Virus record (IMG/VR): IMGVR_UViG_3300025087_000255
Span: 1-29,550 of that record
Reading direction: 5' to 3' (one strand)
Length of the DNA stretch: 29,550 nucleotides
From: a virus
In this document: positions 2,958 to 19,038 of the stretch, one piece after another
Position numbering within the stretch: the first letter of the stretch is position 1
How the letters are laid out: the number at the start of each line of letters is the position of its first letter
Position numbers and translations under genes: made by a program
The notes under the pieces: model-generated
What the model saw: only the letters and a program-made list of their open reading frames with translations
What the model was told of the DNA's origin: nothing
Databases searched by the model: none

Positions 2958-3131
2958 ATGAATGACTTCGAGAAGGCCACTATGCAAACGCTCGACCGGG
3001 ACTACCAGATGTGGCAACTCTTGGAGATCCTCGGCCCGGACCCGAACTACTGGCCTGTAACCGTCCGTGAATGGACAATTGATTGCCTGGTCGCTAGCCT
3101 GAATTCCGAAACAGAGGCAGGTCCCGATTAG
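2958..3131 (+). CDS. Hypothetical small protein, 57 residues
   Basis: Begins MNDFEKATMQTLDRDYQM and ends SETEAGPD. GGGTGA lies six bases before the ATG. It is acidic and mainly helical, with a Trp-rich middle (QMWQLLEILG, YWPVTVREW). It is last in the rightward operon, and its 3' end overlaps the convergent methyltransferase gene by 38 bp. No family is recognised; the frame is supported by the ribosome binding site, codon use and position. Confidence 0.65.
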   Translation: MNDFEKATMQTLDRDYQMWQLLEILGPDPNYWPVTVREWTIDCLVASLNSETEAGPD

Positions 3132-4092
3132 CCCCGGCGGCCTGTTTCCCCTCGGCCCTCGGTAACGCCAGCTCTCGTAGATATTTCATGGACAGGTCTA
3201 GCCCCACAAACTGCCGCCCATGCAGGCGGCAGACTTGTCCTACCGTTCCGCTGCCGCAGAAGGGGTCTAGCACAAGACCGCCCCGCTTACTGCCGGCCAG
3301 GACACACGGCTCCACCAGCGCCGGCGGGAAGGCGGCGAAGTGAGCACCCCGGTATGGTGTAGTCGGGATCGTCCACACGTCGCGACGGTTGCGGGTGGGA
3401 TATGGGCGCGGGTGGCCCAGCTTGTTTTGTTTTCGTGGTCGGACACCGGCAATCTTTGCGGATGGCATCCTCTTTTGTTTATCGCCCGCCCGTCCCTTTC
3501 GATCATCCTCAGGATAAACGCTTGGTTCCTTGATAGCCTCGGCGTCGTAAAAATAGTGGGGGGCCTTCGCCAGCAGGAACAGGTACTCGTGCGCCTTCGT
3601 CGGCCTGTCCCTCACGCTCTCCGGCATTGGGTTCGGCTTGTGCCAGATGATGTCCGACCGCAGATACCATCCGTCCGCCTGCAATGCGAACGCCACGCGC
3701 CAGGGGATGCCTACGAGGTCCTTGGGCTTGAGGCCGGGCTTGGTGAAGTCCTTGGCCCGTCCTTTCATCATCTCGCGTGCTTCCATCGCGTGTCCCCGAG
3801 CGTTGCCCACACCGAACTGCGCCTCCCGCAGACCCTTCGCCGTGTTGCCGCCGAATGCCCCGTAGCTGTCCCCGAGATTCAGCCACAGAGTTCCATCCGG
3901 CCGTAGTACCCGCCACACCTCCCGGAACACGGCGACAATGTTGGCGACGTACTCCTCGGGGGACTTCTCCAGGCCGATGCCGGCCCCGTTCAGACCGTAG
4001 TCCCGCAGCCCCCAGTATGGCGGCGACGTTACGCACATATGCACGCTCTCATCGGCCAGTGGAATGCGCCGTGCATCAGCCTGGGCAATCAT
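3094..4092 (-). CDS. DNA methyltransferase, beta class (N6-adenine or N4-cytosine), 332 residues
   Basis: Motif IV (TSPPYW, residues 23-28) lies near the N-terminus and motif I (DPFCGSGTVG, near residue 275) near the C-terminus, the order of beta-class amino-methyltransferases. The SPPY form is common in N4-cytosine enzymes but also occurs in N6-adenine enzymes, so the target base is uncertain. LRPDGTLWLNLGD and IPWRVAFALQADGWYLRSDIIWHKPNP are usual family blocks. No restriction gene lies beside it, so it is probably an orphan that protects or marks phage DNA. The ATG overlaps the preceding stop (ATGA), with GAGG upstream. Confidence 0.93.
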   Translation of the reverse strand: MIAQADARRIPLADESVHMCVTSPPYWGLRDYGLNGAGIGLEKSPEEYVANIVAVFREVWRVLRPDGTLWLNLGDSYGAFGGNTAKGLREAQFGVGNARGHAMEAREMMKGRAKDFTKPGLKPKDLVGIPWRVAFALQADGWYLRSDIIWHKPNPMPESVRDRPTKAHEYLFLLAKAPHYFYDAEAIKEPSVYPEDDRKGRAGDKQKRMPSAKIAGVRPRKQNKLGHPRPYPTRNRRDVWTIPTTPYRGAHFAAFPPALVEPCVLAGSKRGGLVLDPFCGSGTVGQVCRLHGRQFVGLDLSMKYLRELALPRAEGKQAAGANRDLPLFRNSG

Positions 4093-4687: not shown

Positions 4688-5216
4688 CAATGTCCTCCAG
4701 CGCCGCCAGGGCTATTCTCGCCTTGGCCCTCTGTGTCGGCTCTAGTAGCGGGATGGCCTTCAACAGATTGCCCATAGCGCGCCCGATGTACTGCTCAACT
4801 GTCACGATTTTGGACGGTTTCGGCGGCTCCTCTAACCATGCCTCCAGCAGGGCAAACGCCTGCCCTCGTATGTCATCTGTGACATATTGGCCCGGCCGCC
4901 AGCCAACTCTCTGCCTTGCCATCGATGCGCTATGCCAGGAGATGCCCAGGGGTATCTCCTCGTGAACGTCGCCCCAAAAAGCCCAATTGGAAGCATAAGA
5001 GGAAAGCACAGATCGCGGTATCCCAATCTGCCGCGCAATCCAACTGATGGTATGTATCTCCTCCGCGATAGGTCTCCCAGATTTTCTATGAGGAACGAAC
5101 CAGTTCACTAGAGCCCCCAGAAGCCATCGCCCCTCATCGGCTTGTTCCCTCAGTTCCGCCGCGACCTGAACAACGTCCTCGGCAGTTTTGAGCTCGGAAA
5201 AATCAATCATACTCAT
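4680..5216 (-). CDS. Hypothetical protein, 178 residues
   Basis: Starts MSMIDFSELKTAEDVVQVAAEL; predicted mostly helical. WIARQIGIPRSVLSSYASNWAF (about residues 59-80) resembles a helix-turn-helix, so DNA binding is possible but not established. The C-terminal part (ALLEAWLEEPPKPSKIVTVEQYIGRAM) may be a second helical domain. No family is recognised with confidence. Its ATG overlaps the stop of the GIY-YIG gene and its end overlaps the metalloprotease-like gene, so it sits inside a coupled operon. Confidence 0.75.
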   Translation of the reverse strand: MSMIDFSELKTAEDVVQVAAELREQADEGRWLLGALVNWFVPHRKSGRPIAEEIHTISWIARQIGIPRSVLSSYASNWAFWGDVHEEIPLGISWHSASMARQRVGWRPGQYVTDDIRGQAFALLEAWLEEPPKPSKIVTVEQYIGRAMGNLLKAIPLLEPTQRAKARIALAALEDIDG

Positions 5217-5782
5217 GATAGCCCATGATCTCTGGCCTGGCGGGCCCTTTGGGAGATGGACATATGGAGCCTGGCATCAATCGTTGCCAACTTGCCTTTG
5301 TTCCATGGGGGACCCATCTTTTTGCCTTTGTTCCATGGTGCGCGCCCTATATTGCATGCAGACATCTTCGCCCTGGCATCTGGGGAATGGCGTTTTCCTC
5401 TTCGCGCGGCCGCAATATTGGCTCTTTGTTCTGGCGAGCGGTTCCGCGCGGCGGCGGATTGCTTGGCCCTGGTTTCTGAAGAATGTTTCCTACCAAACAT
5501 CGGAGCGCCAGCCCTAAATGAGATGTTATATTCCGGCTTCTCATTATCCAAAAGCTCCTGTTCTCTATCTAAAAGCATCTCCGGAGCACATTCCTCAATC
5601 AGCATAAATTGAAATCTATTCTCGCCGTGCATATTCCATGCCGCTTGCAAATTCTTATTCCTGTGAATGCCTACCCGCAAATCGTGCCGGTGTCTACGCC
5701 ATCTTCGGGCCAGATCTATAGCTGATCCGATATAACGCTCACCCGTGGCAGTGTTCGTGATGGCGTATAAACCTGAAGTCAC
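5213..5782 (-). CDS. GIY-YIG homing endonuclease with NUMOD3 repeats, 189 residues
   Basis: The N-terminal GIY-YIG domain (about residues 1-90) shows GLYAITN, ERYIGSAIDLARRW with the catalytic-type Arg, HRNKNLQAAWNMHGENRF, and the conserved Glu in LLDREQELLD. Residues 95-170 contain NUMOD3-type DNA-binding motifs (MFGRKHSSETRAKQS, KRHSPDARAKMS and two PWNKGK elements). This layout is that of free-standing phage homing enzymes such as the SegA class. The start is GTG at 5782, because an in-frame TGA sits two codons upstream. It is a mobile gene within the operon. Confidence 0.93.
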   Translation of the reverse strand: MTSGLYAITNTATGERYIGSAIDLARRWRRHRHDLRVGIHRNKNLQAAWNMHGENRFQFMLIEECAPEMLLDREQELLDNEKPEYNISFRAGAPMFGRKHSSETRAKQSAAARNRSPEQRANIAAARRGKRHSPDARAKMSACNIGRAPWNKGKKMGPPWNKGKLATIDARLHMSISQRARQARDHGLS

Positions 5783-7727: not shown

Positions 7728-8008
7728 GGCTGCCTCTCTCGTCTTCCGGTTGTGTATAGTCCACCACCCTCAACGGCTGTTGTGTAAGGCGATCCACCGC
7801 GCAGGGCGGCCCCACAATACGGGCAGAAAAGCAGGTTGTTGTCGCTTGGCCCCCCATCAGTAAAGACAAAGGCATTGCCACATTCCGTATCCCAAACGCC
7901 GTCGTCATCCTCTGTCCATTGGCAACTTCGCTTCTCCAGCGCATCGATGCGAGCTTTCAAATCTACAATCAGGCCGTAGGCATCTGCAAGTTCCCTGTCC
8001 GTTGTCAT
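7724..8008 (-). CDS. Small phage zinc-ribbon protein, 94 residues
   Basis: A short N-terminal coiled coil (ADAYGLIVDLKARIDALEKR) precedes C.W.EDDDGVWDTECGNAFVF and FCPYCGAAL, a pattern repeated in many phage proteins of unknown function, where the four cysteines bind zinc. GAGGAG lies five bases before the ATG, which overlaps the preceding TGA. A Gly/Thr/Arg-rich tail follows the zinc motif. Confidence 0.8.
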   Translation of the reverse strand: MTTDRELADAYGLIVDLKARIDALEKRSCQWTEDDDGVWDTECGNAFVFTDGGPSDNNLLFCPYCGAALRGGSPYTTAVEGGGLYTTGRRERQP

Positions 8009-11476: not shown

Positions 11477-12136
11477 TCAATTTCCCTTCGCCGGAGGGCG
11501 GGGAAGAGCCGCCCCCCGGCTAACCAAGGAGGAGACGGAAACATCGGGAAGTTCGGCCCAGCGCTTCCGGGTCTCTTCCCGTGGTTCCTTGCCGAAAGCC
11601 TTGAATCTGCCCTTTCTCATGGAATCGTGCGTGTTGGCTCTCTGCGTTCCAAGAAATAGGTGTGCGGGATTTACGCACCAGGGATTATCGCATTTGTGAA
11701 GAACATTCATTTCCTCGGGCACTGGCCCATTGAACATGATGTAGACAATCCGATGCGCATAGTTCTCGCCGTAGTGCTGGGCCATACGGCCACGACACGC
11801 GCCGTATCTGTGCGTTGTCGGTCCCCATTTCGCGCCACGCCATTTCCAACAGGTGGGGCCCTTCTCAACATTGGACCAGAAGGATTCGGCCGCCCGCCAC
11901 GCTCGCGCCTCTCGCTCATACGCGCCCTTGCTCAGCTTGGCGTCGATCTCCCTCCGCTTCCGATCTACAGATATGCGCATCGAGGTATCAATCAGCTGGT
12001 GAACAGCCTGCCGCGTTATCCCGTACGCCCTCCCGATCTCGGCGAGGGTCATGCCGGCGTTGTCATATAGCCACTGCATCGCCGCCAGACGCTGATCCAA
12101 TGTCTCCTTCACGGTGACACGCCCACGTTTTCCCAT
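11477..12136 (-). CDS. HTH-HNH (His-Me finger) homing endonuclease, 219 residues
   Basis: Residues 12-52 are a helix-turn-helix (AAMQWLYDNAGMTLAEIGRAYGITRQAVHQL split over two helices and a turn). Residues 85-190 form an HNH_3-type domain: TCWKWRGA, HRIVYIMFNGPVPE, then VLHKCDNPWCVNPAHLFLGT, with the catalytic His and the zinc-like Cys/His set, and NTHDSMRKGR. Such proteins are free-standing phage homing enzymes. It is first in its operon, and the promoter places +1 on the A of its ATG, so the message is probably leaderless; no Shine-Dalgarno is seen. Confidence 0.9.
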   Translation of the reverse strand: MGKRGRVTVKETLDQRLAAMQWLYDNAGMTLAEIGRAYGITRQAVHQLIDTSMRISVDRKRREIDAKLSKGAYEREARAWRAAESFWSNVEKGPTCWKWRGAKWGPTTHRYGACRGRMAQHYGENYAHRIVYIMFNGPVPEEMNVLHKCDNPWCVNPAHLFLGTQRANTHDSMRKGRFKAFGKEPREETRKRWAELPDVSVSSLVSRGAALPRPPAKGN

Positions 12137-15543: not shown

Positions 15544-16590
15544 ATGTCGGGTGTGATATGGTCCACCGAGGAAGACGCCGCACTCTTGCGGCTGGCGATA
15601 ACCGTCAAGCTCAATAACGACTTGCCGGACTGGAAAAGGATAGGGCAACTTCTCAAGAGAACGTCGCACGGCGCACGACACCACTACGCAGAAATCAGAC
15701 CTGTTTCACAGATTGCCATCTCGCCGTATCCGAAGTACGATGCGCCGCTGGTCATGGAGGGTGACTGTCTGGTTCTGCCAGACCCAGAGTTTCCGTTTCA
15801 CCACGCCGAATTTCTGAACAGGTGCTTGGACTTAGCGGACAAATGGGGCATCAAGCAGTGCAACATTGCAGGAGATACGGTTCACTTCGATAGCCTCTCG
15901 GGGTGGGAGGCGAACTGGATCAACCCCGCCGCAGAGAGCGGATTGTCCGAGGAGCACCGGGACTTGCTGGAGGCGGTTGTCCTCACTCTCCAGCCCGGCA
16001 AGCGGGATGAGCTGCTAACCATCATGGACCAGATTGCCGAGCCCGTGAGGGAGGGTTCCCCCAGCGTCTCTCAGGAGATGGAGGTTGCCAGGAAGTCCCT
16101 CAAGGTCATTGGCGAGATGTTCGACAGAGTGGATCTGGTAATCGGAAACCACGATGGGCGCCTATTGCGGGCCCTGAACAGCGCCACCTTTGCCGAGGAC
16201 TTCAAGAAGTTCCTGGATGCCACCGACCCGAAGTGGCGGATTGCGCCGTTCTACTTCTCGTATGTGATGTCCGACAGTGTTCCCTATCTGATTGAGCACC
16301 CCAAAGGGGCAGCAAAGTACACCGCCTCGCAACTGGCGGACAAGTACCAATGCCATGTTCTGATGGCGCACTCCCACAGGATGAGCATGAACCCATCGAA
16401 ATCAGGACAGTGGATGGGCTGGCAGATTGGCTGCTGTGTGGACGAGCGGAGATTGTCCTATGCCGCCCAACGGCACAATACACAGGACGCCCACGCCTTG
16501 GGGGCGGCGATCATTCGGGGCGGCTATGTCACGGTGCTAACGGAGCAGTGGACGGATTGGAAGAGGCTCCTCGGCGGAGAGCAGGGCTGA
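15544..16590 (+). CDS. Calcineurin-like metallophosphoesterase with Myb/SANT-like N-terminus, 348 residues
   Basis: Residues 5-55 (WSTEEDAALLRLAITVKLNN, then IGQLLKRTSHGARHHY) resemble a Myb/SANT DNA-binding helix set. The catalytic domain shows GDTVHF near residue 109, VIGNHDGR near 202 and MAHSHR near 278, the metal-binding motifs GD, GNHD and (G)H.H of the metallophosphoesterase fold; the first DxH motif is not clear. Likely a phosphodiesterase or nuclease acting on DNA or nucleotides. GGGAGG precedes the ATG. It is last in the operon and overlaps the convergent HNH gene by 54 bp. Confidence 0.8.
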   Translation: MSGVIWSTEEDAALLRLAITVKLNNDLPDWKRIGQLLKRTSHGARHHYAEIRPVSQIAISPYPKYDAPLVMEGDCLVLPDPEFPFHHAEFLNRCLDLADKWGIKQCNIAGDTVHFDSLSGWEANWINPAAESGLSEEHRDLLEAVVLTLQPGKRDELLTIMDQIAEPVREGSPSVSQEMEVARKSLKVIGEMFDRVDLVIGNHDGRLLRALNSATFAEDFKKFLDATDPKWRIAPFYFSYVMSDSVPYLIEHPKGAAKYTASQLADKYQCHVLMAHSHRMSMNPSKSGQWMGWQIGCCVDERRLSYAAQRHNTQDAHALGAAIIRGGYVTVLTEQWTDWKRLLGGEQG

Positions 16591-17046
16591 TGACCTCTCA
16601 TGCGGACAGAAGCCATAGTGTCCGCGTGAACCATTGCAATTGTGACATAGGATCCTAAAGCCCTCTGGAAATCCGCTTCTAATCAACCATACATAAAACC
16701 ACGTTCCCGAACTCGTTCCGATTGTCCTTCTATGTGCCTCGCCGCCGCCATCTATGTGATCTACTGCCAAGAAATGAGGATCTGCCTCTCCACAACAGGC
16801 ACACTTGCCCCCATAATGACGGAGGACGGTAATTCTGTTTCTGGAATGCTTTAAACGTGCGCGCTCGTTAATCTTGTCTCTGTTCTGTTTGCGGCTTGCA
16901 TTCTGCCGACTCCGTATTTCCTCCCTGTGTTTGACATAATATTGCTTAACATAGGCCAGAACCCTCTCACGATTCCTTAGATACCATTGTCGCCTGGCGA
17001 TCCTGCGTTTTTCCTGTGTGGCCTCGCTGTATTTGCGTTTCCCCAT
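16537..17046 (-). CDS. Free-standing HNH endonuclease, 169 residues
   Basis: A long basic N-terminal region (RRIARRQWYLRNRERVLAYV and more Arg/Lys helices) precedes the HNH core: CACCGEADPHFLAVDHIDGGG, WLIRSGFPEGFRILCHNCN, GFCPH. The two CxxC pairs bind zinc, and DH supplies the catalytic His. The family's usual end is about at CPH; the last 25 residues read into the convergent phosphoesterase gene. Start at ATG 17046 after GGAGG. It is a mobile gene, and it overlaps the end of the upstream HNH-like gene by 80 bp. Confidence 0.9.
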   Translation of the reverse strand: MGKRKYSEATQEKRRIARRQWYLRNRERVLAYVKQYYVKHREEIRSRQNASRKQNRDKINERARLKHSRNRITVLRHYGGKCACCGEADPHFLAVDHIDGGGEAHRRTIGTSSGTWFYVWLIRSGFPEGFRILCHNCNGSRGHYGFCPHERSSALLSAEEPLPIRPLLR

Positions 17047-17416
17047 CTGTGCCTCCAGAATAAAGTTTATCACATTCTAGAGGCGCAAGCAAGGCGGGGA
17101 GCGTCCATTCGTGAGGCCGACTCTTCGTTAGGTCCCTGAGTCCCTCCAACACATCGGAGCAGTATTCTGCCCCGAAAATCGAAACCCGCGCTTTCAATAG
17201 TGAGGCGCGGGCTTCCTTTGTGTCGTGAGTTCTTCCAGTGTTATGAGAATGGCACACGACGGCGAGGAGAATTTCGGAGTTCTTCTCGACATAGGCAAGT
17301 GCCCCGCGGACATTCCGCAGGGCACTTCTATTGAGGATGTGCGCCCCCTCTAGTGGCCCGCCACAGCCCCCCAGGTGGCGCAGCTCACATAGCGCGTTCG
17401 TAGGTGATTTGGGCAA
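16967..17416 (-). CDS. HNH-like protein, C-terminus probably altered, 149 residues
   Basis: CELRHLGGCGGPLEGAHILN, then AVVCHSHNTGRTHDTKEARA resembles a compact HNH fold (paired Cys, AH, then C..H....H). No ATG is available near the N-terminus: TTG at 17416 is the best start, 32 bases inside the upstream gene. The last 30 or so residues are low-complexity and lie in the same DNA as the start of the next HNH gene, so the native end may have been replaced when that gene inserted. The HNH call is moderate. Confidence 0.55.
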   Translation of the reverse strand: MPKSPTNALCELRHLGGCGGPLEGAHILNRSALRNVRGALAYVEKNSEILLAVVCHSHNTGRTHDTKEARASLLKARVSIFGAEYCSDVLEGLRDLTKSRPHEWTLPALLAPLECDKLYSGGTDGETQIQRGHTGKTQDRQATMVSKES

Positions 17417-17988: not shown

Positions 17989-18095
17989 CATAACAGAATA
18001 ACCGGCGGTGGGGAATTGCACCCGCTTCCGCTGTAAGAGCTGCCAACTGGGGCAGTTTACATACGCCTGTTACGCTCGCCGGATGTTACATTCCT

Positions 18096-18141: not shown

Positions 18142-18414
18142 TTATCCCCGAATGGCCGCGTAGGTCTTGTGGATGCCAAACGCGCCAAGGATGCCAGCAA
18201 GCAGGGTCAGGACCTTCACGATGATGTCCTGAACCTCGGGGCTGGCGAGAGCCAGAAGACCCTCGGCAAAGACCAGAACGGCCGCCACAAGAGCGGCAAC
18301 TACGGCCGCCCACTTGCCGGCCAGGTCGGCGCCGAAGAGCCCGAGTAGTGCCTTGATTCCCTGGGTGACCAAGAACGCCAGTAGCGCCTTGACCTCAATC
18401 GGTAGCTCGAACAT
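18142..18414 (-). CDS. Holin-like membrane protein, 90 residues
   Basis: Starts MFELPIEVKALLAFLVTQGI with AAGGAG seven bases upstream. Three hydrophobic segments are visible (residues 9-27, 33-56 and 66-83), separated by short polar turns, and the length fits small phage holins. The phage membrane-pore role in lysis is inferred from size, topology and position beside the coiled-coil/membrane gene. The first 18 codons are repeated, as a decayed fragment, at 18725-18778. The 5' region contains a 20-bp palindrome and two structured RNA copies. Confidence 0.75.
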   Translation of the reverse strand: MFELPIEVKALLAFLVTQGIKALLGLFGADLAGKWAAVVAALVAAVLVFAEGLLALASPEVQDIIVKVLTLLAGILGAFGIHKTYAAIRG

Positions 18415-18451
18415 GGTTATCTCCTTTGACTGCTTTTCTTATACGGATGAC

Positions 18452-18471
18452 TACAATGTGTATACATTGTA
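18452..18471. promoter_or_regulatory. Palindrome TACAATG-N6-CATTGTA upstream of the holin gene
   Basis: Perfect seven-base arms separated by six bases, 38 bp upstream of the holin ATG. The dyad and spacing are typical of a helix-turn-helix repressor site. A -10-like TATAAG lies between it and the ribosome binding site without a good -35. It may control late lysis timing; this is inferred. Confidence 0.45.
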
Positions 18472-18546
18472 TCGACCATTACAAGCCCGGCTGATTGTAA
18501 GCTTCAGCTACGTCTGATTGTAAACCTCCAGTGCCGAGATTGTGAA

Positions 18547-18723
18547 CAAGGGCCGGGGCTCCAGCTCATCCTGCATTGTGAGACGACAAGGCGACTCACC
18601 GCATGGATTCCGACTCTGGTTGCCCAGTGGAGCAGTCGGGCGGATTCTTGGGCCGCCGGTGATGGGCACCGTTGGCGGCTTGTAGCAACCTACGTTCTCC
18701 TAGCCCTCTAGGCCCGGCCCCTG
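18547..18723 (-). ncRNA. Structured RNA, copy B (177 nt)
   Basis: Read on the minus strand, CAGGGGCCGGG (18723-18713) pairs with CCCGGCCCTTG (18557-18547) with one G-U, closing the element. Inside, in order: CCTAG-AGGG-CTAGG; GCCGCC..GGTG..CACC..GGCGGC; and CCGACT..CTGG-GCAA-CCAG-AGTCGG, the last with a GCAA tetraloop. A hairpin follows (ATCC..GGTGAG..CTCAC..GGAT) whose sequence is unrelated to copy A. The 108-nt scaffold differs from copy A by two substitutions and one base. No coding frame explains it. Confidence 0.65.
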
Positions 18724-18724
18724 A

Positions 18725-18778
18725 CTTGATGCCCTGGGTGACCAGGAATGCCAGCAATGCCTTGACCTCAATCGGTAG
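18725..18778 (-). pseudogene. Fragment of a holin gene (codons 4-21 only)
   Basis: Eighteen codons encode LPIEVKALLAFLVTQGIK, identical in protein to residues 4-21 of the holin at 18142-18414. There are six base differences, all synonymous. It has no proper start and runs into unrelated sequence after the Lys codon. It lies between the two structured RNA copies. Because differences are only synonymous, the fragment probably came from a related phage's functional holin by recombination and not from a fresh tandem copy. Confidence 0.8.
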
Positions 18779-18787
18779 ATTGTGAAC

Positions 18788-18956
18788 AAGGGGCCGGGGC
18801 TCCTGGTCGTCCACTAAAACCCTGTGCGGGTGGCGTGGACATTACCGACTCTGGTTGCCCAGTGGAGCAGTCGGGCGGATTCTTGGGCCGCCGGTGATGG
18901 GCACCGTTGGCGGCTTGTAGCAACCACGTTCTCCTAGCCCACTAGGCCCAGCCCTT
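18788..18956 (-). ncRNA. Structured RNA, copy A (169 nt)
   Basis: Minus strand: AAGGGCTGGG (18956-18947) pairs with CCCCGGCCCCTT (18799-18788), using a G-U where copy B has G-C. Then CCTAG-TGGG-CTAGG (18946-18933), the GCCGCC/GGCGGC hairpin (18914-18887), and the GCAA-capped hairpin (18874-18845). The variable hairpin here is GTCCAC..ACCC-GCACA-GGGT..GTGGAC (18840-18809). An upstream stem CCGAGG/CCTCGG (18989-18972) lies between it and a promoter near 19008. Function unknown. Confidence 0.65.
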
Positions 18957-19007
18957 GGTGCCAGACCCTTGCCGAGGACAAAGCCTCGGTTCGGACCCTG
19001 CGTCACT

Positions 19008-19038
19008 ATTCTACCACAGTTCTTGGTGATATCACCAA
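19008..19038 (-). promoter_or_regulatory. Leftward promoter with 16-bp perfect palindrome
   Basis: TAGAAT (19013-19008) preceded by TGG (extended -10), the same form as the HTH-HNH promoter. The palindrome TTGGTGATATCACCAA (19038-19023) lies over the -35 position, where TTGGTG gives at best a poor match. +1 would be near 19001, so the transcript would carry both structured RNAs. A bound dimer would block this promoter. Confidence 0.5.

Follow-up and report, generated by a model that had tools for sequence, protein, structure and literature searches.

What occupies the 633-base gap between an XhlA-like frame (19386-19048) and a small holin-like gene (18414-18142) on the minus strand of a phage genome, and what might it do there? 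The gap lies in the window, by which we mean the whole stretch of 29,550 nucleotides analysed here (IMG/VR virus record IMGVR_UViG_3300025087_000255). The XhlA-like frame was named by eye, and a family search returned no match for it. A first-pass annotation had placed in the gap a tandem pair of a structured phage RNA, and both its coordinates and its assignment to the minus strand were correct.

Two tandem copies of one RNA

The gap holds two copies of one RNA of about 170 nt, copy 1 at 18957-18783 (closing stem 18954-18947 with 18798-18791) and copy 2 at 18724-18542 (closing stem P0, 18720-18713 with 18557-18550). Alignment of the copies reproduced the annotated scaffold. Between GGGC in the closing stem and AGUCGG they differ by two substitutions and one indel. 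The differences fall at the sites named before, namely a T/C exchange in the closing stem (G-U versus G-C), a T/A exchange in the loop of the first hairpin, annotated as the P2 tetraloop, and an extra A in copy 2. The segments that precede the 3' closing strand, 40 and 46 nt long, had been described as unrelated in sequence and yet both hairpins. Their identity of 50% compares with 48% for shuffled sequence, and each has a more stable predicted fold than its dinucleotide shuffles (z -3.9 and -2.3). The GCAA tetraloop that had been assigned to one of these variable hairpins belongs instead to P3, an invariant hairpin of the scaffold, and is present in every copy.

The copies are separated by an 18-codon fragment of a diverged holin gene (18725-18778, minus strand), so that copy 1 is also directly followed by holin sequence. 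Six synonymous changes had been reported between this fragment and the intact gene; we count six changed nucleotides, spread over five codons and without exception synonymous, which indicates that the source holin was under selection while it diverged. In the simplest history, a relative that also had this RNA-holin unit would have recombined with the window phage and left the holin fragment between the RNA copies. The variable hairpin of L536, a related phage described below, most resembles that of copy 2 (67%).

Relatives and distribution

Pattern scans of IMG/VR with subsequent alignment recovered the RNA in two other phage contigs, L266 (IMGVR_UViG_3300009285_001158; 83% over 172 nt, E 1e-43) and L536 (IMGVR_UViG_3300025313_000076; 86% over 175 nt, E 9e-50). 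Since identities to these contigs are 83-90%, the pair in the window is more than a chance resemblance. Each record carries one copy, which brings the set to four RNA copies in three phages. L536 comes from a relative of the window phage: its flanks are homologous, and it has a single copy at the corresponding site. L266 belongs to an unrelated phage whose proteins have no match among the window proteins; its gene order is the RNA, a small holin-like gene, and the small and then the large terminase subunit. The homologue search proposed in the first-pass annotation thus yielded relatives with compensatory changes and no common open reading frame, which upholds the claim that the minus strand encodes a structured phage RNA not recognised before.

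These records set a minimum for its distribution in IMG/VR, since the scans relied on exact short patterns and two of them cover only the matches listed. Scans with the 14-mers GGCCCAAGAATCCG and GGCTAGGAGAACGT returned chance matches only, as did ACGGTGCCCATCAC among the matches listed. A gapped pattern of the loops recovered only L266 from viral contigs and nothing real from genome contigs. With blastn, no real match was found in sequenced phages to the pair, the L266 copy or the L536 copy, nor in plasmids to the pair or the L266 copy. About 1,750 sampled prokaryote genomes in seven phylum samples contained no such RNA, a weak negative because this search had no positive control. In Rfam 15 no family exceeded the gathering threshold, and up to an E value of 10 the matches were at chance level. 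No description of this RNA was found in the open-licence literature. Three familiar explanations were rejected: ARAGORN called neither a tRNA nor a tmRNA, the group I intron core, inspected by eye, leaves no room for J8/7, and indels and stops break the reading frames of a coding sequence. We are confident that the RNA family is real and, within the searches made, undescribed.

Phages found through their capsid protein gave no match to the RNA in the parts examined, mostly short fragments. An insert of about 613 nt splits the major capsid gene of two relatives (L177, 1801-2413; L182, 359-971) between residues 340 and 341 and encodes an HNH-like protein that is 41% identical to the product of window positions 16537-17073. 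The insert looks like a self-splicing intron (a GACUA...UAGUC pairing was noted by eye) and has no Rfam match. The window phage itself carries several homing-type endonucleases in one genome; its genes include a GIY-YIG/NUMOD3 endonuclease (5213-5782) and an HNH_3 protein (11477-12136) as well as a pentapeptide-repeat protein (1492-2058) and an N6/N4 DNA methylase (3094-4092).

Secondary structure and covariation

A covariance model was built from all four copies, and the same four, when scored with it, reached 188-213 bits (188.6 for copy 1 and 213.3 for copy 2). Over 105 scaffold columns the copies agree pairwise at 90-102 positions, and their variable hairpins mostly show little or no more identity than shuffled sequence. 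In the proposed plan the closing stem P0 would hold the hairpins Pa, Pc and Pb, a probable nested double pseudoknot of P1, P2 and P3, and the variable hairpin P4. For the model P0-Pa-Pc-Pb-P1/P2/P3, 98% of the cells are paired, against 28-50% when the partners are slid.

Compensatory changes occur in two stems. In Pa (CCUAG-AGGG-CUAGG, 18699-18712 on the minus strand in copy 2) an A-U pair is G-C in L266 and L536, and in Pb (GCCGC...GCGGC with an inner GGUG-CCCAU-CACC, 18652-18679, minus) a G-C pair is A-U in L266. Pc (GUAG-GUUG-CUAC, 18682-18693, minus) shows U-A to U-G in L266 and L536. This change belongs to the one-sided changes in the closing stem, Pc and Pb, all three of which lead to G-U on the minus strand; on the other strand they would be A-C mismatches, which identifies the minus strand as the RNA strand. 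No reading frame is open in all four copies. With few sequences, the covariation score of the whole structure was reached by 26 of 500 shuffles, and each helix therefore rests on few events.

The loops GGG (Pa) and CCC (Pb) are invariant, as are GUUG (Pc) and GCAA (P3), which hints at tertiary contacts. Loop-loop pairings GGG/CCC and UUG/CAA are possible, as is an alternative helix GGUUGC/GCAACC; the bases concerned are invariant in both cases.

The probable pseudoknot core and the variable hairpin

The core of copy 2 (18610-18639, minus strand) comprises P1 (CCGACU/AGUCGG), the 5' strand of P2 (GCUCC, 18633-18629) and P3 (CUGG-GCAA-CCAG). P1 and P3 are separated by six bases, GCUCC plus A or G. 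The 3' strand of P2 (GGAGC, 18558-18562, minus) directly abuts the closing stem. The core is invariant except for P1 of L536, which has a one-base deletion and is best read as CCG[A]CU/AGCGG. RNAalifold picks the helix P2 over P1. Both can coexist and would then make up a nested double pseudoknot whose helices follow one another as in the HDV ribozyme. Such a connectivity is likely, although all bases of P2 are invariant and so lend it no covariation support.

Ribozymes of the HDV type share the helix order P1-P2-P3-P1'-P4-P2', a highly variable P4, a helix P1.1 and a catalytic cytosine motif in J4/2. The variable P4 of the present RNA fits this plan, and the proposed order of its helices would fit it too, with P2 invariant and P1 imperfect in L536. 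However, the 4-nt GCAA loop L3 leaves no room for P1.1, the joiner J4/2 (GACC, GAGC, AAGU and GAGC in the four copies) shows by eye no obvious conserved catalytic motif, a GC-rich stem encloses the whole structure, and no HDV family of Rfam matched even at E 10. A self-cleaving ribozyme is in consequence very unlikely. The same comparison holds for the HDV-like theta ribozymes of phages, which the present RNA resembles in its variable P4 and its probable nested double-pseudoknot connectivity. The present RNA differs in the absence of an Rfam match, of P1.1 and of a matching joiner, in its extra enclosing stem, and in its place near lysis genes; theta ribozymes are reported to be associated with phage tRNAs (PMC10879173).

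P4 spans 18568-18608 in copy 2 and 18809-18840 in copy 1 (GUCCAC...GUGGAC), both on the minus strand. In copy 2, L266 and L536 the predicted folds are built alike, with a 4-bp base, a 1-nt 5' bulge, 3-4 bp, a 2-nt 3' bulge and an inner stem, and their base sequences differ (AUCC/GGAU, GUCU/GGAC and UGUC/GAUG, respectively). Copy 1 has the base GUCC/GGAC and is without the two bulges. Because these three keep the architecture while their sequences differ, a structural role for P4 is likelier than a guiding one.

The first-pass annotation had compared the fixed scaffold and the exchangeable hairpin, which differs between the two window copies, with a retron-like or targeting RNA, and had seen no reverse transcriptase in the window. 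Indeed, no RVT_1 domain was found in the records of the window, L266 and L536, any of which may be a fragment; the control genomes matched. Among the Pfam-scanned window genes there is no TnpB, IscB or IS110 protein, and the P4 architecture is conserved in three of four copies. A retron-like or guide RNA is largely refuted and in our judgement highly improbable. The observation that had singled out this locus is thus confirmed and its interpretation partly supported.

Promoters, spacer and the holin-like gene

In L536 the RNA is preceded by TTGCAA-17-TATAAT with a TG before the -10 element. As this extended -10 promoter ends at 7792, transcription is expected to start at about 7799, at the base of the closing stem, which begins at 7801. 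Within a 900-base region of L536, two promoter-like sites were found versus 0.4 expected. A weaker site, GTGATA-16-TAGAAT, also with a TG before the -10 element, lies about 50 nt 5' of copy 1 (19008-19035, minus). The interval between this site and copy 1 contains a leader hairpin, CCGAGG-CUUUGU-CCUCGG (18972-18989, minus), that is missing in L536. Copy 2 has the holin fragment just upstream and no promoter-like site directly before it, and in L266 no promoter match was found just upstream of the RNA.

The spacer between copy 2 and the holin-like gene (18415-18549, minus) is conserved in L536 and contains TTACAATC-type repeats and a ACAATGTATACACATTGT palindrome. The repeat units recur about every 22-23 nt (window 18549-18415; L536 7973-8103) and together with the palindrome possibly form an operator. 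A promoter-like TTCACA-18-TACAAT is located in the window spacer (18546-18517, minus), and the L536 spacer has a second promoter-like site as well, so the holin gene may be transcribed separately. Past the end of the closing stem, the next start codon comes after 135 nt in the window, 133 nt in L536 and 135 nt in L266. The L266 spacer resembles the others no more than shuffled sequence does (z 0.9 and 0.07). In the window and L536 the spacer is of common descent, and the fixed spacing therefore counts as one independent comparison.

The gene behind the spacer (18142-18414, minus) encodes a small membrane protein of 90 aa, termed holin-like for its size, its hydrophobicity and weak PHROG matches; its holin matches have E values of 0.38-0.40. 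A relationship among the holin-like proteins would be at most very distant (L536 versus L266, BLASTP E 0.042), and in viral contigs no relative of the window protein was found. Just past the gene, a long inverted repeat without a T run (GTCATGTAACTACCC...GGGTACTTACATGAC, 18138-18093) is kept in L536 (91% over 46 nt). Further downstream, on the minus strand at 17990-18090, the window contains a tRNA-like remnant (CAGTTGGCAG ... GCGGGTGCAATTCCCCACCGC), which is absent from L536 and is called by neither ARAGORN nor Rfam.

Possible action on the lysis unit and comparison with known phage RNAs

The constant spacing of 133-135 nt and the holin sequence behind copy 1 tie the RNA to a lysis gene and favour an action in cis. 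Our best reading, tentative and a little short of an even chance, is that of a promoter-proximal structured RNA that would control the adjacent lysis or late unit in cis. Transcription, in L536 from the RNA's own sigma-70 promoter, would start at the closing stem. The RNA would fold as it emerges and act as a promoter-proximal leader on RNA polymerase, the ribosome or a bound factor, and would thereby set the expression of the downstream unit.

One special case of such a leader would be a riboswitch that binds a ligand and controls the holin-like gene, its duplication recalling some tandem riboswitches. A conserved core with a variable stem in a gene leader and the tandem copies are in line with it. 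No expression platform or terminator was recognised and no platform is conserved between the lineages, no metabolic target gene lies directly downstream, and the L266 spacer is unrelated; we consider a riboswitch quite unlikely.

The main rival to the cis leader is a trans-acting phage RNA, a 'moron' with its own transcription unit near the lysis genes, whose stable fold would bind a host or phage protein as a sponge, inhibitor, antitoxin-like RNA or regulator. The holin neighbourhood would then be merely where such cargo accumulates. This is a serious possibility, given the promoter at the 5' end of the L536 RNA, the second promoter-like site after the RNA, a scaffold strongly conserved across unrelated phages, and precedents in lysis modules, namely RCd22 of AbiF (PMC12373285) and the Pas sRNAs (PMC13192938). 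Against it stands the equal distance of 133-135 nt to the next start codon in two lineages, and no partner protein, terminator or abiF RNA match was found.

The RCd22 antitoxin RNA of AbiF (PMC12373285) is structured, lies in the lysis module of a phage, repeats a motif and has a promoter of its own, traits that recur in the present RNA. Its motifs are hairpins of 33-35 nt, unlike those described here; the abiF model RF03085 gave no match, and no Abi_2 protein was present among the Pfam-scanned genes. The Pas prophage sRNAs of E. coli (PMC13192938) act by base pairing and lie beside a holin/lysozyme operon. The present RNA shares the position beside a holin but is a compact, highly folded molecule whose loops are nearly invariant. 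For an action in cis, the put RNA of phage HK022 offers an analogy: it mediates antitermination downstream of a sigma-70 promoter with no dedicated protein factor and occurs in two similar copies per genome (PMC9378689). The window genome likewise has two similar copies, and a promoter-proximal position is apparent in L536, weaker for copy 1 and without a match in L266. However, put is about 70 nt long, consists of two stem-loops and follows early promoters, whereas the present RNA is about 170 nt long, multi-helical and probably pseudoknotted, and precedes a holin-like gene. Put, RCd22 and Pas have position or habit in common with it, not sequence or fold.

The timing of phage lysis is generally attributed mainly to holin proteins. 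A bolder form of the cis reading, which we regard as unlikely, is a class of multiply pseudoknotted RNAs that would set lysis timing or late transcription directly and without a protein factor, as a ligand-sensing, polymerase-modifying or catalytic leader of the holin-like gene. If two lineages of phages indeed have a strongly conserved, highly folded RNA at one distance ahead of holin-like genes that are otherwise unrelated, this would suggest either an additional, RNA-based layer of control or an RNA effector carried in the manner of a moron.
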